Source: Pseudobdellovibrio sp.
GTDB lineage: Bacteria; Bdellovibrionota; Bdellovibrionia; Bdellovibrionales; Bdellovibrionaceae
DNA length: 53,130 bases
Direction of reading: 5' to 3'
Assembly: GCA_023701385.1 (NCBI GenBank)
Contig: JAMPXC010000021.1
Coordinates: 1-53,130 of the forward strand
Positions 9,957-48,401 of the stretch are shown here, one piece after another; the stretch's first letter is position 1, and each line of letters begins with the position of its first letter. Both the position numbers and the translations under genes were made by a program. The notes below the pieces were generated by a model. That model did no database searches and was not told the DNA's origin. It saw only the letters and a program-made list of their open reading frames with translations.

Positions 9957-10352
9957 ATGGATGAGTTCAAATTTGTTCTTAAATGTTTATTAATTTCTTG
10001 TGTAATCGTTATTTTTTCACAGACCAGAATTTCAGGTGAAACTTTAGAAAACAAAGCTTTTATCTTTTTTAAACACTCTGATACGGCTCACTGGGTTCGC
10101 GCTGCCGCTGATGGTGGCGTAAAGTTAATCCGCCAAGGCGTAGATAAAACACAGCAGTTTATTTCGGATAAATTCGGAAGCGGATCAAGCTCAAGTTCAT
10201 CAAGCAGAAGCTATTCTTCTGAAGAGGCTCCTCAGCAGCAGGTTTCTAGCAATACGGGGTTATTTCGTAAGCTAGAAAAAAAAGAAGCCCAGCAGTTGGG
10301 GGAGACTGCTGAGCCTGAAATTAGTGAAGACGATTTAGCTATTGAAGAATAA
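9957..10352 (+). CDS. Small membrane-anchored protein with Ser-rich tract
   Basis: The 131-residue product has one hydrophobic segment (~residues 7-24) and a predicted helical region. A serine-rich linker (GSGSSSSSSSRSYSS, ~80-94) and a Gln/Glu-rich acidic tail follow. A good Shine-Dalgarno (GAGG, 7 bp) precedes the ATG. It is divergent from the barrel-protein gene and ends 3 bp from the convergent small-protein gene. No family is recognised. The tail probably lies outside the cytoplasm if the N-terminal segment acts as an anchor or uncleaved signal. Confidence 0.65.
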   Translation: MDEFKFVLKCLLISCVIVIFSQTRISGETLENKAFIFFKHSDTAHWVRAAADGGVKLIRQGVDKTQQFISDKFGSGSSSSSSSRSYSSEEAPQQQVSSNTGLFRKLEKKEAQQLGETAEPEISEDDLAIEE

Positions 10353-10355
10353 ATC

Positions 10356-10586
10356 TTAGTTAGCTGAGTTACCTGGTTTAGATAAGCTTGGTCTGCTCGT
10401 GCTAGCTTTTGCTAACATTTGCGCGTAGAAGTTCGATTTCTTATCATCACGAGATACATGTTTAGTAAAAATTTTGCCGCACGGTAAAACGATTGGCGCT
10501 TCAGATGCTGATCCTGGCGTAGATAAAGCCATTGAGATAGAAGAAAATAATAAACCAGCTGCAAGTGCGATAATTGATTTTTTCAT
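10356..10586 (-). CDS. Small secreted protein
   Basis: The 76-residue product has a signal peptide (MKKSIIALAAGLLFSSISMA) and a ~50-residue mature part rich in Ser/Pro/Lys with one cysteine. AGAGG sits at a good distance before the ATG. No family is recognised. It is convergent with the preceding gene and separated by a 180-bp spacer from the hit-like operon terminator. Confidence 0.65.
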   Translation of the reverse strand: MKKSIIALAAGLLFSSISMALSTPGSASEAPIVLPCGKIFTKHVSRDDKKSNFYAQMLAKASTSRPSLSKPGNSAN

Positions 10587-10663
10587 ATGAGCCTCTCTTT
10601 TTTAAAGCGTTCGTTATATAAGTCTATATAGCGAACCGAATGCCAAGAATGACATTTCTGACC

Positions 10664-10694: not shown

Positions 10695-10768
10695 AGAGAG
10701 GTCGTCTCATTATGAGAACGACTAAACTTTTGACAACTGTTAAGCCAGAAAAAGGAAAATCGAAGCTA

Positions 10769-11104
10769 TTAGTTACCAGTGCCTACAGGGTCACTTGAAC
10801 TAGAACCACCTGTAGTTGCGCCCGCGCCCACTGTTTGTTTCACACCGGGACCAGCGCGGCGAGCTGCTGAAGATAAAATAACGTTTCCAGATGTTTGGCA
10901 GCCCATGCACGTTTTAACTTGCGAAGAGCCAGCACCTAACACAGTCACACCCGATTGGTTTTCTGTAACAACGTCTTGGCCATCGCCATTACGTTCAGGG
11001 CCTGTAGCAGCTACGCGACCTGCTGGAAACGCATCTTCAGCCATAGCTTGAGTTGAGATTACCGAGAACAAAACGATCATTACTAAAGAGATAATTTTTT
11101 TCAT
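10769..11104 (-). CDS. Small secreted protein, candidate hit (Bd0108-like) gene
   Basis: The start at 11104 has AGGAG 7 bp upstream and gives a signal peptide (MKKIISLVMIVLFSVISTQAMA). The 111-residue product has a mature region rich in Gly/Ala/Thr with a CMGC motif (Cys-x2-Cys) near residue 65 and a Ser/Gly tail. It lies 10 bp after the Rhs-like gene and is the last gene before the pilus-operon terminator. In B. bacteriovorus the host-interaction gene bd0108 encodes a ~100-residue exported protein next to bd0109 and the Flp genes. Size, export signal and position match. I have not compared sequences, so the homology is an inference. It would influence pilus state and the switch to prey-independent growth if the link holds. 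Confidence 0.7.
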   Translation of the reverse strand: MKKIISLVMIVLFSVISTQAMAEDAFPAGRVAATGPERNGDGQDVVTENQSGVTVLGAGSSQVKTCMGCQTSGNVILSSAARRAGPGVKQTVGAGATTGGSSSSDPVGTGN

Positions 11105-11114
11105 CGTAAAGCTC

Positions 11115-12803
11115 CTATAAGTATAATTCTTGTGTTGCTGGGGCAATCACATCTAACAAGTTATTAAAAGTGCTGGCAACCTGTGACGCTACCGCCGCAC
11201 CATCAGCGCTATCTACTTTAGCGATATCGCCATTTGATTTATAAGAAACCTTAATCGAACCTAAACCAGGACGAGTCACCGTTTGTGGTTTGCCGAAGCG
11301 TTCTTCGTAATCAATCTTAACTACTTTTTTGGCTTGGTCAGTGATTGATTGAATGCGGCCTTTCATATCGTAAGTCATATTGATTTTTTGGCCATCACTG
11401 TTTTCAGCGTAAGTTAAGTTGCCTTTAGCATCGTACTTAAACGCTGTTGTGCGAATTGTTGTGGCTTTACCTTTTTCGTTGATAAAGCTTGTTTTAACAG
11501 TTGATACACGTTTGATTGTTGGATCGTAAGTGTATTCAAGTTTTGAATTTGCTGTTGTTTTAGTTTTAGGTAAACCATCAGCGAAGTATTCAAAGTCAAC
11601 GCGGTCATTATTGATTTTAATTGTAACCGGTTTACCAAAAGTGTCATGGTAAGTGATATCACGGATTGAACCGTTCACATTTGTTAATAAACGCGAGAGC
11701 ACCACTTGGCCTGTTGGTAATTGTTTGTGCCAAAATTCATAACGGTTAGTTGCTAAAGTTTGTTTGCCGCAGACTTTAGTAGCTGTTGACCAGTAGTTGA
11801 ATTTTGGATTTGAAGTTGAAAATTCGTATTTGTAAGACTCAGTACATTTATCACGATCAGTGAAAGATAATACCCAGTCTTTTACGTTATCGTATTTGAT
11901 AGCGATAGATGTTTTATCTGGCCAGTTAGCTTTAGTTAAGTTGTGAAACTCATTGTACTCGTAAGTGTATACATCAGTTTCTTTTTTAGCCCAGGCATTA
12001 CGATTCCAAACTAAATCTTCTTGTTGGTTGTATTTGTACTCTGTCATTAAGCCGCTTGGACCAGTGATACGTTGTACTTTTTTATTTGGAAAGTATTTGA
12101 AAGTTAATTTGCGGGCGTTGTTGTCAGTGATTTCTGTTAATAAATCTTTTTGGTATTCAAATTTTAAAAAGTTACCGTTTTTATCGTACATGTGAGTTAA
12201 GCGGCCTTCGCCGTCAAAACGTTGCATGCTGCCATCGGGTAAAGTGCGCGTGTAAACACCTTTAGCAAAAACTACGTTTTCAACTTCTTTAGCATTGGCG
12301 CTGTATTTAGTGCCTTCTTTAACCGGAACGATAATTCCGAATTGACGGGCATATTGCGAACGTAATTCTGAATCATCATAAAGCTGTGCTTCGATATTTT
12401 TCCAGTAGTCAGCGGTATTTGAACTGAATTTTTTATCAGCGCGCATTTTTGAAATGATTTGTCTGATTGAAGACTCAACATCTTTTTTTGTTAATTCACG
12501 TGAAGAGTAAACGATCTCTTGACCGTCACCGCATTCAGAAATTTTAAGATTGCCTTCTGGCGTAGTTTCTAATTTAGTTTCAAATTCAGAACACCAGCCA
12601 AAACCAAATAGACCGTTGTAAATCGTACGGCTTTTATAAGCACGGAGTACGCGCATATCATAACCAGTTCCTGGAACTTCTAAATCTGTCCAAGTATTGG
12701 AATAACCCGCATTGTTCATATCAACTAAAGCTTGCGCTTTATCAGATAAAATTAAAGTCGCAAAAGTCGCAGTGACCGCAAGAAGAACGTTCCATGTCTT
12801 CAT
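11115..12803 (-). CDS. Rhs/YD-repeat secreted protein, candidate Bd0109-like
   Basis: The start at 12803 gives a signal peptide (MKTWNVLLAVTATFATLILSDKAQA). A longer open frame to 13010 would overlap the pilus membrane gene. The 562-residue product opens with a segment resembling the Rhs N-terminal DUF6531 domain (YKSRTIYNGLFGFGWCSEFE). It then carries many YD-type repeats (GEGRLTHMYDKNGNFLKFEY, DAKGNLTYAENSDGQKINMTYD), which build a beta-wrapped shell in Rhs/Tc proteins. There is no C-terminal toxin: the protein stops soon after the last repeat. It lies between the pilus gene at 12848 and the small secreted protein. This order matches the hit locus of B. bacteriovorus as I remember it. Confidence 0.85.
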   Translation of the reverse strand: MKTWNVLLAVTATFATLILSDKAQALVDMNNAGYSNTWTDLEVPGTGYDMRVLRAYKSRTIYNGLFGFGWCSEFETKLETTPEGNLKISECGDGQEIVYSSRELTKKDVESSIRQIISKMRADKKFSSNTADYWKNIEAQLYDDSELRSQYARQFGIIVPVKEGTKYSANAKEVENVVFAKGVYTRTLPDGSMQRFDGEGRLTHMYDKNGNFLKFEYQKDLLTEITDNNARKLTFKYFPNKKVQRITGPSGLMTEYKYNQQEDLVWNRNAWAKKETDVYTYEYNEFHNLTKANWPDKTSIAIKYDNVKDWVLSFTDRDKCTESYKYEFSTSNPKFNYWSTATKVCGKQTLATNRYEFWHKQLPTGQVVLSRLLTNVNGSIRDITYHDTFGKPVTIKINNDRVDFEYFADGLPKTKTTANSKLEYTYDPTIKRVSTVKTSFINEKGKATTIRTTAFKYDAKGNLTYAENSDGQKINMTYDMKGRIQSITDQAKKVVKIDYEERFGKPQTVTRPGLGSIKVSYKSNGDIAKVDSADGAAVASQVASTFNNLLDVIAPATQELYL

Positions 12804-12847: not shown

Positions 12848-13729
12848 CTACACTTTTATTGTAACAACTTTTTTGATTACGATTCCACCAATGATTTGTA
12901 AGACTAGCATAATGGCGAGCATGCCGATGCCTAGGGCGGTTTCGAACATAGGCTTGATGAAAGACGGGTCTAGGATAAAGAAGATGATACCCATTACAAA
13001 TGGGATACAAGAAACGATAATTCCCTGCATGATACCTTGGGCTGTCATGGCAGAAATTTTCTTTTCTAATTTTTGACGTTCACGAATTGTCGAGACTATG
13101 GTCTGGAAAGTTTCGGCCATATTACCGCCAGTTTCTTTTAAAATCACAACGGCAGTTACAAACATTTGTACGTCGGGGCGCGGAATGCGTTCAGCTAAAT
13201 CGGTTAAGGCTTCTTCGTAACTTTGACCGAATTGTGTTTGCGTTAGAACCTGATTAAACTCAGCCTTAACCGGATTTCCCATGATCTCAACCACGCGAGC
13301 CATTGTCTGCTGCGGGTTTGAGCCTGATTTTACACCGTTGGCCATAATCGTTAAGGCATCAACCATCTGCCCCACGAAGGCATTACAGCGGCGCTCATAT
13401 AAAGTTTTATAAAAAATCGGTAAGACTTGAAAGCCTGCAATACCTATTGAAGTTCCTAAGAACAAACCGATCGCGGTATTTGGCCAAACAATCATAAAAA
13501 ATAAAAGTCCCACACCAAGACTTGAAAGAAGTTGCAGACGAATTACTTTTTTTTCGTCTACATCCATTCCTAAAAGTTTCATGTGCATCATGATTTCAGA
13601 TTTTTTTTGCGCGCCACTTTTACTGATACGGTTTAATAAAGTATCGGCGTACATGTACACAGCAAAAAAGACAGAGATTCCAAATAATGGAAAAACTAAC
13701 CATTCATGTCTGAAAACACTTAAGTCCAT
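12848..13729 (-). CDS. Tad pilus inner-membrane platform protein (TadB/TadC, GspF-like)
   Basis: The 293-residue protein has an N-terminal membrane segment, a pair of membrane helices near 65-105, the cytoplasmic T2SSF (GspF) helical domain at ~120-245 and two C-terminal membrane helices. The segment MVDALTIMANGVKSGSNPQQ followed by LKETGGNMAETF is typical of the family. TadB/C proteins couple the CpaF ATPase to pilus polymerisation. Tad loci normally encode two of them; only one is present here. GGAG lies 6 bp before the ATG, and the CpaE-CpaF fusion gene ends 12 bp upstream. Confidence 0.88.
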   Translation of the reverse strand: MDLSVFRHEWLVFPLFGISVFFAVYMYADTLLNRISKSGAQKKSEIMMHMKLLGMDVDEKKVIRLQLLSSLGVGLLFFMIVWPNTAIGLFLGTSIGIAGFQVLPIFYKTLYERRCNAFVGQMVDALTIMANGVKSGSNPQQTMARVVEIMGNPVKAEFNQVLTQTQFGQSYEEALTDLAERIPRPDVQMFVTAVVILKETGGNMAETFQTIVSTIRERQKLEKKISAMTAQGIMQGIIVSCIPFVMGIIFFILDPSFIKPMFETALGIGMLAIMLVLQIIGGIVIKKVVTIKV

Positions 13730-15988: not shown

Positions 15989-17611
15989 CTAGTCTTTAAA
16001 TCTAAATTTCTTTTTCACTTGTTCTACGCCGGCACTAGCTGATGATTTGATAATTGGCGTGATGAACAAGACGTAGTTACTTGAATTTTTAGTAAAACCT
16101 TTTCCATGGTTTAAGGTGATAACTGCACCGGCACCAGTAGGGCCACCGAATTGGTTTTCACTTTTCTTAGAAATAATTCCGGCAATAGCAGCACTTTGAC
16201 GGCTGCGTACAGAAACCATTGTAGCCACATTAGTATCGGCAGAGAACATTAAACCTTGTTGGCCACCAGGAGCAGCCACAGTTTTTACTTTAAGCCCCAT
16301 TTGCACTAGTTCCGAACGCTCTGATTTGATCTGAGGTTTTAGCACAGACAGACTTAAAGTAAATGTTTGTGCATTCGCGGACTGGGGATTTGTTGTCGAA
16401 GTCGTTCCATTATTAACATTAAATGTTCGCGATAAACCCGATTCTTCAGTTTTATCTTGAGTTAATATTGATGCTGTATCTAGTAAACGAATATAACCAT
16501 GTGTTCTGGCCCAATTTAATTTCGGAAGCAAGTTATCCACGACAGCAGCTAATTCTGAAATACTTCCCGGAGCATTAGCTTGTCCTTGAGTTTGCGCCTC
16601 GCCTAAACCACGTAAAGACGGTGAAAACGTAAAGTTGAAACTTTTCATATAACGTTCAGCGTACTCAACAACGTGCATAACCACTTGGATCATTTTTGGT
16701 GGTGGCTCAGTTTTTTCTTCAGCTCTACGCACTTGAATTAAGTTGATCACGTAATTGTTAATGTCTGTTTGCGCTTTACGGTCAGACATCTGAAGGTTAA
16801 GTAAGTTTTCTTGGCCTCTTTCAGTTACGATATCCGGTAGATATAATAAAACGATATCGTTAATACGATTTTTTTCTTCGATAGAATTGACGTAACCTTC
16901 AAGTTTAATAAAGTCGCCAATTGAAGAAACGGTAATTTCAGGGTTATTAATATCGCGGGCGATATACTCAACAATTTTCTTTTTGGCGATCGGGCTTAAG
17001 CTCACCAAACTTGAAACGATCTGCGTTCCGCCCTCTTTAAATTGACCGATAACCTGACCAATTCGTTTTAAATCTTTTGGCAATAAAACGAAACCATCTA
17101 GAACAATACGGTTGTTTACGATTTTATATTCGATACCTTCAATATCTGCTAATAAGGCTTGAAGTTCACGTAATGTTTTTTCGATGCTTTGCGGACGGAT
17201 ATCGACACGTAATTCAACTAAAACCTGACCCGTTTTTTTATTATGAATGGTGATAATACCATTAGCTGCGTCTGGTTTAGTTGCGAACATCCTGAAAGTA
17301 TCAGTGCCTTTGATCCTTTGAATATCTAAAAGCTCTACGTTTCCTTTGTAGGTTAAAGGTATTTCAGGAATAGAAATTTCTTCGTCGTGTTTTACACCGG
17401 CGATTAGGTTTAATTGTCTTCTGATTCTACGTTTATTAGGTTCGCCTTTTAAAAGCTTAACATTGGTTCCGCCGCCTTCTTCAGTTTCTTCGTAGACGGG
17501 TTTTTCTTCGGGAGTTGAAGATGATGAAGGCGCAGAGCTTTGGGCATTTACAAACTGAAATGCAAAACACAAAATAAAAATTAAACGTAACCCTACGCTT
17601 TTTTTCAACAT
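15989..17611 (-). CDS. cpaC: Tad pilus outer-membrane secretin CpaC/RcpA
   Basis: Forms the outer-membrane channel for the Flp pilus. The signal peptide ends near residue 23 (FQFVNAQ), followed by a Ser/Glu-rich stretch. A T2SS/T3SS secretin N-terminal domain (~65-130) and a BON-like segment (~150-270) come next. The C-terminal secretin barrel domain (~300-525) includes GMKVKTVAAPGG-like and NVATMVSVRSRQSAAIAG segments and ends LFITPIIKSS. At 540 residues it is slightly longer than usual. It lies 3 bp downstream of cpaB and 22 bp upstream of the ATPase gene, in operon order typical of cpaB-cpaC. Confidence 0.9.
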   Translation of the reverse strand: MLKKSVGLRLIFILCFAFQFVNAQSSAPSSSSTPEEKPVYEETEEGGGTNVKLLKGEPNKRRIRRQLNLIAGVKHDEEISIPEIPLTYKGNVELLDIQRIKGTDTFRMFATKPDAANGIITIHNKKTGQVLVELRVDIRPQSIEKTLRELQALLADIEGIEYKIVNNRIVLDGFVLLPKDLKRIGQVIGQFKEGGTQIVSSLVSLSPIAKKKIVEYIARDINNPEITVSSIGDFIKLEGYVNSIEEKNRINDIVLLYLPDIVTERGQENLLNLQMSDRKAQTDINNYVINLIQVRRAEEKTEPPPKMIQVVMHVVEYAERYMKSFNFTFSPSLRGLGEAQTQGQANAPGSISELAAVVDNLLPKLNWARTHGYIRLLDTASILTQDKTEESGLSRTFNVNNGTTSTTNPQSANAQTFTLSLSVLKPQIKSERSELVQMGLKVKTVAAPGGQQGLMFSADTNVATMVSVRSRQSAAIAGIISKKSENQFGGPTGAGAVITLNHGKGFTKNSSNYVLFITPIIKSSASAGVEQVKKKFRFKD

Positions 17612-17614
17612 CCT

Positions 17615-18496
17615 CTAATTGCCTGGAGGACGACCTCCAGCTCCATTATTTAAGTTTGGCTGAACTGGCTGAGAAAAGCCACTGGACTGGTAAGCTCCTT
17701 GGCCCATTGTCTGGTTAATTGCTTTTTGTTGAATAGACTCTGCCGTAGAGGACGGAAGTCGAGCTACTTGCTTACGATCGTGTGGATTACGCAGTAAGAA
17801 AAATAAACTGCTCGGGTTAGTTGAAACTAAATACACCAGGTCCTGCGCACTAGATGAATCAACTTCGATTGTCACGTTACCGTATTTTGTATCACCTGTT
17901 AAAGTCGTTTGAATTAAACCACGGCCTGAAGGATCTTTTTCAATCGTACGTGGAATACTATTATTTAAGTTCACACCCGTAGCTAAGATAATAATATCTT
18001 GCATAAGTAACACGACCTCACGCTTCTGCGCAGCCCCTTTACCGGTATCAACAACCGCATAAATATCTACGCGGTCACCTGGGCGGATTAAACCTGCGTT
18101 CGCGCGGGTAGGATCAACCGGGATAGTTACAGCACGTTTATTTGGTGAAACTTGAATGGCCATTCCCGTATCTGGACCTGGCTCTAAAACTTTATTTTTT
18201 GTTAATGTCTGACCTTTTTTAATAGGAATAGCGGCGACTGTTCCCACAACATCTGGAATATCAGAGAAAGCATCTGGTTCAACATCGCTTTTATATTTTT
18301 CAACAACTTCTAAAGCATTATCGTAGATTGTATCTAAATCACGAATATCTTCTTTGGCTACAACGACACGCGCCTTCGCTCCAAGTTGTTTATCGACTTC
18401 AGCTTTTTTCTCTTGGGAATATGTGTACAGCATGAAGGTTGCAAAGATGCCTGCACCTAAAGAAATCCACAAATTTTTTGATTCATTTGGTCCCAT
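17615..18496 (-). CDS. cpaB: Flp pilus assembly protein CpaB/RcpC
   Basis: The 293-residue protein has one N-terminal membrane segment (LWISLGAGIFATFMLYTY). A SAF domain follows (VVVAKEDIRDLDTIYDNALEVVEKY..., ~44-108), then the RcpC/CpaB domain (RPGDRVDIYAVVDTG, ~139-153) and a Gln/Asn/Pro-rich tail. CpaB is a periplasmic partner of the secretin in Tad pilus assembly. GGGGGA precedes the ATG closely. It lies between the TadE-like pseudopilin genes and cpaC in the same transcription unit. Confidence 0.92.
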   Translation of the reverse strand: MGPNESKNLWISLGAGIFATFMLYTYSQEKKAEVDKQLGAKARVVVAKEDIRDLDTIYDNALEVVEKYKSDVEPDAFSDIPDVVGTVAAIPIKKGQTLTKNKVLEPGPDTGMAIQVSPNKRAVTIPVDPTRANAGLIRPGDRVDIYAVVDTGKGAAQKREVVLLMQDIIILATGVNLNNSIPRTIEKDPSGRGLIQTTLTGDTKYGNVTIEVDSSSAQDLVYLVSTNPSSLFFLLRNPHDRKQVARLPSSTAESIQQKAINQTMGQGAYQSSGFSQPVQPNLNNGAGGRPPGN

Positions 18497-26167: not shown

Positions 26168-27031
26168 ATGCAAAAGCAACAAATACATTTCGTGACTGGA
26201 AAAGGGGGCGTGGGAAAGTCGTTTTTCGCTGCGGCTCTAGCTCAAGGTCTGGCTAAAAAAGCTAAATTTTCACCGTCAAAAACGGCTGCGCACAAGCCTA
26301 TTTTGCTAGCAGAATTTAATGATCATAGCTTCTATCAAGAATACCTGGGAAATAACCCCGCTTATTTCGATTTGGCTCAATGGACTGGGACAGAATGCCT
26401 TAAAGAATATGCTCTGCATCTGCTAAAAGTTGAAGCCCTGTATAAACTGTTTTTTGCTAACCCAATTTCCAAGGCTCTGATTGATGTTTCACCAGGCTTA
26501 CATGAGTTGGCTATTTTGGGGCGGGCGACTTCGCTTCCGCGTAAGCATGGGCCGCCGTTAAAGTACCAGCACATGGTGTTTGATGCCTTTTCGACGGGTC
26601 ATTTTTTAACCATGTTTCGCTCACCCGCAGGCCTTGCAAAAATTATCCAGTTTGGGCCGATGGGAGAACAAACCCGTTCGATTGACCAGTGGATCAGAAA
26701 CCCTGAATTTTGCCATGTGCATTTAGTGTCTTTACCGGAAGAACTTCCAGCCACAGAAACGGCTGAGCTGTATCACAGTATTAAAGACGAATTTGGTCTG
26801 ACACCTAAGGTGTATTTGAATAAATATTTTTTCTTAAAAAAAGCAGACTTAAAAAACGAACCTGAAAGTGTAAAAAAATATTTTACCAACATGCTTGAAC
26901 AACAAGAATTGGCCGAAAATATTTTTACCGATCAAAAAATTAAATTTACACCGGTGCCGCTGATTCCAGAAATCGACACGGAAAAACTTTTACATGAAGC
27001 TTCTGAATATTTAGTGAAAGAAGTTTTATGA
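26168..27031 (+). CDS. ArsA/Get3-like ATPase, first of a pair
   Basis: The 287-residue member of the ArsA/MinD superfamily has the complete deviant Walker A TGKGGVGKS with its signature lysine (residues ~10-18). In place of the usual DTAPTGH switch motif it has FDAFSTGH, which keeps the Asp and the His. It overlaps the next ATPase by 4 bp (ATGA). Paired ArsA-like genes occur in delta-proteobacterial relatives, but their cargo is unknown. No arsenic genes are nearby, so an arsenite pump role is not supported. A heterodimeric targeting or regulatory ATPase is an inference. Confidence 0.85.
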   Translation: MQKQQIHFVTGKGGVGKSFFAAALAQGLAKKAKFSPSKTAAHKPILLAEFNDHSFYQEYLGNNPAYFDLAQWTGTECLKEYALHLLKVEALYKLFFANPISKALIDVSPGLHELAILGRATSLPRKHGPPLKYQHMVFDAFSTGHFLTMFRSPAGLAKIIQFGPMGEQTRSIDQWIRNPEFCHVHLVSLPEELPATETAELYHSIKDEFGLTPKVYLNKYFFLKKADLKNEPESVKKYFTNMLEQQELAENIFTDQKIKFTPVPLIPEIDTEKLLHEASEYLVKEVL

Positions 27032-28050
27032 TTAAAGTGGCATCTACTACAAAAACAATCATCTGTATCGGAACTGGCGGTGTTGGTAAAACGACAATGT
27101 CAGCCTCGTTAGCTTCTGGTTTATCAAAAGATAAAAAAGTTTTAGTGTTAACAATTGATCCGTCTTTACGACTGGCGCAAGCCTTAGGAATCAAACCTGA
27201 TGGTGAAGTTTATAAAGTAAAACAAAATCTTTACGCTTGTACTTTAAATCATCAAAAAGCTTTTCAAGATTTCGTGTTAAAAGCGGCCAAATCCACAGCG
27301 ACAAAAGAAGAAATTGAAAAGCTATTAGAAAACAAATTGTATAAACAACTTTCGACACAATTAAGTGGTTCGCAGGATTTTTCTTCGTTATTTAAGCTGA
27401 CTGAATTTGTAAATTCTAAAGAATACGATATCGTAATTTTAGATACGCCTCCAGCGCAGCACACTTGGCATTTTCTGCACGCACCAGAAAAAATCGCGCA
27501 GTTATTTAACGAAGGTGTAGCGCAGTGGTTTCGTGATCCAGATCAAAAAGATGTGGGCTTTTTTAAGCGCGTGTTAAACACGGGAACATCACAAGTTTTA
27601 AAAATTCTAGAAAATCTAACGGGTTCAGAATTCGTTAAAGAGCTTTCAATGTTTTTTAAAGCCATTCAGCGCTGGCAAACACCCCTTGAAAAACAGGTGT
27701 GGGATTGTCATAAGGTTTTAACAGCTAAAAGCACTGAATTTATTTTAGTGACGGCGCTTGATCCGTCACGCATTAGCGAAGCTTTACGGTTAAGTTCTGA
27801 GATTGAAAAACAAGGTTATAACTTAAAATCGATTATTATTAACCGTGTGCCTTCATGGATGAATGAAGAGGTTAGCGCAGGGCCGTTAGTTCGTTATGTT
27901 GAATATCTTAAAGCGTTAGAAGCACGACTTCTTGGGTCTAAGTCTAAGTTTGGTGCGCATCTTAAGGTGTACAAATCGCAGGAACTCAGCCACAATCAGT
28001 TACATGTGGAAAATCTTAGCGATATCTATCACAACATTGAGCTTATCTAG
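27028..28050 (+). CDS. ArsA/Get3-like ATPase, second of a pair
   Basis: The 340-residue member of the same superfamily has the P-loop GTGGVGKTT at residues ~14-22. The signature lysine of the KGGVGKT motif is replaced by Thr. The switch region reads DTPPAQHTWHFLHAP, close to ArsA/Get3 (DTAPTGHTLRLL). The C-terminal helical part is longer than in its partner. The gene overlaps its neighbour by 4 bp on one side and the TPR-lipoprotein gene by 47 bp on the other, so the three are co-expressed. The missing lysine suggests an asymmetric pair. Confidence 0.87.
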   Translation: MIKVASTTKTIICIGTGGVGKTTMSASLASGLSKDKKVLVLTIDPSLRLAQALGIKPDGEVYKVKQNLYACTLNHQKAFQDFVLKAAKSTATKEEIEKLLENKLYKQLSTQLSGSQDFSSLFKLTEFVNSKEYDIVILDTPPAQHTWHFLHAPEKIAQLFNEGVAQWFRDPDQKDVGFFKRVLNTGTSQVLKILENLTGSEFVKELSMFFKAIQRWQTPLEKQVWDCHKVLTAKSTEFILVTALDPSRISEALRLSSEIEKQGYNLKSIIINRVPSWMNEEVSAGPLVRYVEYLKALEARLLGSKSKFGAHLKVYKSQELSHNQLHVENLSDIYHNIELI

Positions 28051-47582: not shown

Positions 47583-48401
47583 ATGAAAAAGTCATTGTTA
47601 GTATTAACTATGTTAACTGCAGGAATCACCGTTCAAGCAGCCGACGATTCACGTGTAAGAAGCGGTCTGATGGAAGTGCAATCTGCGCAAAGCCAAACAC
47701 AAATTCTTTTTAATGAAGTGACAACACCTCAGCAAAAAGAACGCGTTCGTTATATCAATCAAAAATTAGCGCAAGCTGAAAACTATTTGCAACAGGCTTT
47801 AAATTTACCTACAAACCCACCTCATCAGGGGCAAAACGTAGAATTCTTTCGTAGCGATTCATGTAGCAGTGAGTTAGTAGGGGTTGTAAATCCAACGACA
47901 GATTGCAATCGTTTTTCGTTAACAGAAAAAGTCTGGGCCATTCGTGTAAATGGTCAATGCCAAGACATCGATGATACAACGGCACAAAATGCTTGTCGCA
48001 TGTATCAAAATGCCGGCAATACTGAAGCCGTTAAAGTGTACAAATCAGATTCTTGCGGTGATTCTTTATCAGGTATTTTTTCGTCATACACAAACTGCGA
48101 CACTTTAAGTGATTCAGGTAATAGCGCTTGGGCCATTATGGTTGGTAGCCAATGCAAAAATATAGCCGATACGACATTAAAGAAAAGTTGTATCGCTTTT
48201 AAGGCGATAAATTCGCCTCGCGCTGTTAAATTTTATCATTCAGATTCTTGCAGTGATGAACTAGTTGCTGCCGTTGATAGAAATACAAACTGCGAAAGTT
48301 TAGTGGGACTAGGCAAGGTGTGGGCAGTTGAAATTAACGGCCAATGCCAAGATATCTCTGACCTTGAGATCGTTCCTGCATGTCAGCGCTTTAAACCTTA
48401 A
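47583..48401 (+). CDS. Secreted protein with three cysteine-rich repeats
   Basis: The 272-residue product starts with GGGGG 4-5 bp before the ATG and a signal peptide (MKKSLLVLTMLTAGITVQA). A helical segment (~25-75) precedes three tandem repeats of ~60 residues, starting near 85, 148 and 211. Each reads roughly (V/F)xx(F/Y)xSDSC, then (D/N)C, VWAI-like, (G/S)QC and AC/SC, so each has four cysteines at fixed spacing. Two disulphides per repeat are likely. I do not recognise the family. It is probably a periplasmic or surface binding protein. The repeats are well diverged, so this is an old internal duplication. Confidence 0.82.
   Translation: MKKSLLVLTMLTAGITVQAADDSRVRSGLMEVQSAQSQTQILFNEVTTPQQKERVRYINQKLAQAENYLQQALNLPTNPPHQGQNVEFFRSDSCSSELVGVVNPTTDCNRFSLTEKVWAIRVNGQCQDIDDTTAQNACRMYQNAGNTEAVKVYKSDSCGDSLSGIFSSYTNCDTLSDSGNSAWAIMVGSQCKNIADTTLKKSCIAFKAINSPRAVKFYHSDSCSDELVAAVDRNTNCESLVGLGKVWAVEINGQCQDISDLEIVPACQRFKP

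Follow-up and report, generated by a model that had tools for sequence, protein, structure and literature searches.

The DNA analysed here (the window), a stretch of 53,130 nucleotides forming one 53-kb contig of a 3.18-Mb Pseudobdellovibrio genome, carries a locus that comparison of sequence and gene order supports as the hit locus, the counterpart of the Bdellovibrio bd0108-bd0109 pair, which lies beside the pilus genes and governs the change between predatory and prey-independent growth. This locus consists of three genes, not two: a shell protein, a Bd0108-type protein and a third small secreted protein, whose gene, overlooked by the earlier note on this DNA, lies at 10356-10586 in its own σ54-type unit past a terminator-like hairpin. 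The HD100 counterpart of the third gene lies within a transcript published as a non-coding RNA, and this transcript, which rises on bd0108 mutation, probably encodes a secreted protein. How Bdellovibrio passes from hunting to growth has been an open question since the hit locus was discovered; should the published sRNA be a message for a secreted protein, the signalling step proposed for it would give way to a protein open to tagging, deletion and Bd0109-binding tests.

The source of the window is the epibiotic Pseudobdellovibrio/Ca. Bdellovibrio qaytius lineage. The YD protein encoded here shares 93% identity with its counterpart in Bdellovibrio sp. qaytius (CP025734), and both qaytius and P. 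exovorus JSS, of the same genus group, are described as epibiotic predators (PMC11656739). Elsewhere in the window, a secreted protein with three Cys-containing repeats of ~55 residues (SDSCSxEL...NC) is encoded at 47583-48401, and two adjoining genes at 26168-28050 resemble ArsA/GET3-type ATPases.

The case for the hit locus starts from gene order. The two minus-strand open reading frames that the earlier note had placed at the 3′ end of a pilus cluster are both present, separated from the TadB/C-type gene by the 44 bp it gave, and Pfam bears out a Flp/Tad pilus operon upstream: T2SSF, the T2SSE part of a ParA/CpaE-TadA fusion and RcpC score above their cut-offs and a weak Secretin match just below (Table 1). 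The fusion is also matched by TadA-family and MinD models, and HD100 has a similar fusion of 739 aa. Directly 3′ of the TadB/C-type gene lies a Bd0109 orthologue, followed directly and on the same strand by a small secreted CxxC gene. The HD100 chromosome (G040; 3,782,950 bp), with an exact match to the published sRNA primer CTCTTGTTTGAACGCTGTCG at 96555-96574, has the identical order of TadA-type gene, TadB/C-type gene, bd0109 and bd0108, which agrees with the homology that the earlier note had proposed. A protein resembling the product of the convergent gene that bounds the window locus is seen, by inspection, at HD100 96125-96385. Alignment to HD100, the other comparison that had been suggested, succeeded for the YD protein and failed for the small protein. 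The outcome named in the earlier note as refuting, with neither likeness to Bd0109 nor a shared gene order, thus did not arise.

Table 1. Features of the window locus and their counterparts in HD100
Feature	Coordinates	Strand	Basis or sequence
Window
Convergent gene bounding the locus	9957-10352	plus	ORF list
Third hit gene, 76 aa, secreted, one Cys	10356-10586	minus	Recurrence with own promoter; dN/dS 0.167
Predicted σ54 −24/−12 promoter of third gene	10630-10645	minus	TGGCATTCGGTTCGCT; conserved position
Terminator-like hairpin, end of Tad-hit transcript, before third-gene promoter	10694-10671	minus	
Palindrome, putative regulator-binding site	10705-10717	strandless	TCTCATAATGAGA; recurrence versus shuffles
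Bd0108 positional homologue, small secreted low-order protein with CMGC, 111 aa	10769-11104	minus	Position; sub-threshold hit_Bd0108 match
Bd0109 orthologue, secreted toxin-less Rhs/YD partial shell, 562 aa	11115-12803	minus	61% identity; AlphaFold2 model
TadB/C-type inner-membrane pilus platform protein	12848-13729	minus	Pfam T2SSF E 1.4e-17
CpaE/ParA-TadA fusion ATPase, 741 aa	13741-15966	minus	Pfam CbiA 10-215, T2SSE 355-641
Secretin-like pilus channel protein	15989-17611	minus	Pfam Secretin E 3.3e-5, just below cut-off; BON domain
RcpC/CpaB	17615-18496	minus	Pfam RcpC E 2.8e-17
HD100
TadA-type gene	101975-99756	minus	
TadB/C-type gene	99752-98877	minus	
bd0109	98846-97194	minus	
bd0108	97178-96873	minus	
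Counterpart of third gene, 66-aa ORF	96683-96483	minus	

This arrangement is not due to chance, since it recurs widely. A script run over ~100 loci gave 83 unique YD genes; downstream sequence sufficed for 77, of which 73 are Tad-linked. Simple rules served to call signal peptides and ORFs, and most loci come from MAGs. We took G018 as Tiberius and G041 as strain W, the assignments of HD100, JSS and SJ being likewise inferred. Two homologues that are 35% identical to the YD protein and without Tad linkage (L091 and L093) come from an Alphaproteobacteria MAG record and Roseovarius aestuarii KCTC 22174, and reflect either transfer or contamination.

The YD protein, from its start (MKTWN) at 12803 to its stop at 11115, aligns end to end with HD100 Bd0109, at 61% identity across 546 residues. 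Pfam finds RHS_repeat (E 1.5e-15) and DUF6531 (E 1.9e-7), and the AlphaFold2 model (mean pLDDT 77.7) matches Rhs shells (Foldseek E 3.5e-22) and Tse5 (VIA-align Z 23.5, 352 residues aligned at 3.7 Å), so that the repeats and the model together point to an Rhs shell fold. In a 17-sequence alignment, conservation runs to the last residues, the C-terminus ends in PATQELYL, Cys 71, 91, 320 and 345 are invariant and none of the orthologues has a variable C-terminal toxin tip, as the earlier description of a toxin-less shell would have it. For Bd0109 itself, the protease and toxin regions are reported absent and encapsulation of Bd0108 has been proposed (PMC4267844). RHS/YD repeats with small genes downstream could also be read as a decayed Rhs toxin-immunity module lying beside the pilus genes by chance; however, the protein is conserved to its very end with no toxin tip, its RHS_core score of 39.6 bits against a cut-off of 2000 is that of neither a full Rhs core nor an Rhs polymorphic toxin, and its place behind tadC is fixed, which makes such decay scarcely credible.

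The second protein has diverged much further. Its N-terminus is signal-peptide-like, BLASTP gives nothing significant against Bd0108 (E 2.0), and the NCBIfam model NF053838 (hit_Bd0108), aligned over residues 1-88, scores 13.7 bits (E 0.066), below the curated cut-off of 40 bits, against 102 bits for HD100; we therefore call it a positional homologue and not a family member. The same model reaches E 1 in 7 of 15 second-gene proteins. As there is no significant match to Bd0108, the identity of the 111-aa protein rests on position, architecture and intermediate relatives: HD100 and 70 of the 73 Tad-linked loci have a second gene at this place, and the Cys-x2-Cys motif, which the earlier note had rightly singled out for comparison, is CMGC in the window and the documented C56/C59 disulfide motif in Bd0108 (PMC4267844). 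The HD100 small protein carries C56, C59, N32, D36, A52 and Q101, numbered as in the NMR paper (PMC4267844). Among Bdellovibrio second-gene proteins, the most conserved positions after CxxC are R73, D76 and T78 in HD100 numbering (0.86, 0.86 and 1.0), and all three fall within residues 73-86, the segment removed by the common 42-bp host-independence deletion (PMC4267844). A 10-bp repeat in HD100, CAAAGGCTCC, with a spacing of 42, fits this deletion, whereas the window is without that repeat and no direct repeat of at least 8 bp was found in its counterpart. A frameshift interrupts the bd0108 counterpart midway in L124 (G041, probably Bdellovibrio sp. W), where the third gene is intact; this agrees with the published statement that the homologue in strain W is without its C-terminal region.

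The third protein, like the second, begins with a signal-peptide-like N-terminus. Its gene, together with a σ54 site, is found in 46 of the 73 Tad-linked loci, with one Cys in the mature part in 44 of these 46, and in 13 of the 14 loci whose YD identity is at least 60%; for the other 27 of 73, the heuristic search found no third gene with the motif. Within the genus Bdellovibrio, it is present in all 23 readable loci (22/22 parsed by script, plus G041 by eye), and third-type genes with σ54-type motifs extend to Halobacteriovorax marinus SJ and further remote members of the phylum. In several distant genomes, a σ54-type small gene directly follows the YD gene, and a separate Bd0108-type gene was not seen. 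No Pfam or NCBIfam model covers the third protein. As a candidate member of the Bd0108 family it is rejected by the HMM, with 1 of 20 members weakly matched (E 0.87).

Substitution patterns show that the third gene is protein-coding, because close pairs show purifying selection, with dN/dS of 0.02-0.17, and changes concentrated at third codon positions. Changes at positions 1/2/3 number 2/1/15 between HD100 and G018 (dN/dS 0.041), 0/0/15 between L112 and L114, and 13/6/30 between the window and qaytius (dN/dS 0.167). Furthermore, signal peptide, Cys and length are kept across genera as the nucleotides diverge. This bears directly on HD100, for which Capeness et al. (2013) described a 261-nt non-coding RNA at 96455-96716 that is raised in bd0108 mutants, and found bd0108-0121 down in host-independent strains (PMC3818213). 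The 66-aa ORF lies wholly within this RNA, and so do, inside the ORF, both published RT-PCR primers (96555-96574 and 96633-96652; PMC3818213). In the available part of the published account, RNA-seq and RT-PCR do not establish the strand. In the part of the literature that was searched, we found no statement that the HD100 sRNA is coding. A regulatory RNA that overlaps a small ORF by chance, or one with a dual function, would agree with its publication as an sRNA of altered expression (PMC3818213) and with the shortness of the transcript, but we judge it very unlikely: the RNA contains an ORF under purifying selection with a clear codon-position pattern, it folds no better than its shuffles (z −0.12), Rfam yields nothing but a tRNA in the window, and the encoded features persist across genera and recur in H. 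marinus.

What precedes the third gene would set it apart from the Tad-hit transcript. σ54 sites were searched with GG-N10-GC fixed and at most 2 mismatches elsewhere, a pattern found in 0.41% of shuffled upstream regions. A predicted −24/−12 element of this kind stands upstream of the third gene at a conserved distance, the −12 box lying a median of 42.5 nt from the start codon, and the window genome encodes rpoN (PF04552, E 1.8e-64; C20). The third gene is accordingly predicted, by sequence only, to be σ54-dependent. The bare −24/−12 pattern is barely enriched genome-wide (90 against 83 in the control for the window genome, 122 against 79 for HD100), and thus only its conserved position counts. 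In HD100, the site at 96758-96743 predicts a start at ~96732, with 12 nt allowed from the −12 GC, and the published 5′ end of the sRNA is at 96716. The hairpin upstream is visible at the same place in the HD100 and G018 sequences. It was described earlier as following the small gene and as the only clear terminator, a claim that fails, as a second candidate lies on the same strand at 10316-10285; such sites are no commoner in the region than in shuffles (3 versus 3.0).

Between the second and third genes there is also a palindrome, whose strict form is found in 33 of 68 loci against 3 of 6800 shuffles. It takes the form GTCTCA-N3-TGAGAC at HD100 96767-96781 as well, and in most palindrome-bearing Bdellovibrio loci it lies exactly 22 bp upstream of the −24 box. 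Sites with at most 1 mismatch number 93 against 10 in the control for HD100 and 53 against 2 for the window genome, frequently preceding genes whose products have a signal-peptide-like N-terminus. A role as σ54 enhancer is not supported, since of the 20 exact sites that HD100 has elsewhere no more than 3 have a σ54-like site nearby. A c-di-GMP riboswitch (merRNA) in the locus was rejected, Rfam giving only a tRNA in the window; the merRNA of HD100 is at 1.07 Mb (PMC3627812).

The second and third proteins resemble each other in several respects. First of all, both have a signal peptide, Cys and a low-order tail, with a fraction of order-promoting residues of 0.19 in each small protein against 0.31 in the shell. 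Second, the post-Cys segments of the two resemble each other more in the same genome than across genomes (reached in 11 of 2000 stratified permutations), as in GILDKTAA/GILDNTSA (L126) and GRLGDRTNA/ARLGDSTGV (L045); this likeness is absent in the window's own genus, where 1270 of 2000 permutations reach it. Third, comparison of the two profiles gives E 4e-4, suggestive inside Bdellovibrio only, and the similarity of their motifs is modest (shuffle 1/100). Motif sampling gives no ground for claiming a common motif: the third-gene motif exceeds its shuffles and also beats shuffles on second proteins, but the reverse test fails. The within-genome likeness of the post-Cys segments, together with the conserved residues inside the deletion segment, weakly suggests a contact shared by the two proteins. 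Most of these proteins, 54 of 72 second and 36 of 46 third ones, end in K, R, N or Q, generally preceded by a tail rich in G, S and T.

We consider it rather probable that the three-gene anatomy goes together with a signalling role of the locus. The shell and the Bd0108-type protein would be co-transcribed behind the Tad pilus genes, with the third protein in a σ54-type unit; the shell would sit in the periplasm by the pilus and hold the Bd0108-type protein, as in the published model; a change in the state of pilus or Bd0108 would lead an RpoN-dependent activator to switch on the third gene, and its product would act on the same shell or pilus as cells enter growth mode. For Bd0109, this product may be an alternative client or one that competes. 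Competition with Bd0108 for the shell is a hypothesis of ours that we judge rather improbable. The same low confidence attaches to the wider idea of the hit switch as a three-part device across Bdellovibrionota, an Rhs half-shell with two alternating secreted clients that compete for it, the ′sRNA′ being the mRNA of the second client; production of the Bd0108 client would accompany that of the Tad pilus in attack phase, and the σ54-driven client would be made once that state ends.

Such a signalling role has to be weighed against the breadth of the family. The YD gene is present in 170 of 192 genomes of the phylum (148 of the 158 good ones), so the basic role of the YD family probably belongs to the Tad pilus, the predatory switch being one use; this near phylum-wide shell and a full locus in epibionts suggest a basic Tad-pilus part and not an invention of periplasmic invaders. 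For the same reason, the locus may be an accessory of Tad pili in general and no predation switch. The three genes would then serve throughout the phylum as a structural accessory, such as a chaperone or anchor for pilus parts, without switching growth in the window lineage, and host independence in HD100 would be a side effect of disturbed pili. The distribution of the YD gene and its Tad linkage favour this explanation, as do the failure to obtain a bd0109 deletion (PMC3818213), the epibiotic habit of the window lineage (PMC11656739) and the finding that host-independent variants of epibiotic JSS are hard or impossible to get (PMC4267844). On the other hand, selection of host-independent HD100 strains repeatedly yields bd0108 mutations, prey dependence returns on complementation (PMC4267844, PMC11323537), and the third gene, regulated in the opposite direction, points to signalling. 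A purely structural accessory is thus possible but, in our judgement, fairly unlikely.

Comparison with known systems places the window locus among its relatives. The window protein has the YD-repeat β shell in common with Rhs/YD toxins and the BC shells of Tc toxins (Tse5 8cp6, RhsA 7q97, 4igl); unlike these, it is about half the length of an Rhs cocoon, without a match to the core-domain autoprotease or a toxin tip. The HD100 hit locus shares with the window the order and strand of Tad genes, bd0109 and bd0108, the CxxC motif, the terminator and a third ORF with a σ54-type motif, whereas the window small protein has diverged beyond BLASTP and its lineage is epibiotic. In P. exovorus JSS, A11Q_2375 (G002, L105) is Tad-linked, with YD gene, small secreted protein and a third gene with a σ54-type motif; unlike in the window, its small protein is without Cys. 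A second, unlinked YD copy, A11Q_2207/2208 (L106), has CRDC and no third gene. These locus tags were assigned to L105 and L106 by inference, and the comparison favours the Tad-linked copy as the true hit counterpart, unlike the suggestion in PMC4267844. Finally, in H. marinus SJ, BMS_0182 and BMS_0183/0184 (L174), named in PMC4267844, the YD protein is 33% identical and the first of the small proteins carries a single Cys but lacks CxxC, unlike in the window; the locus nevertheless combines Tad genes, a YD gene and two small secreted proteins, with the σ54-type motif on the gene of the second.
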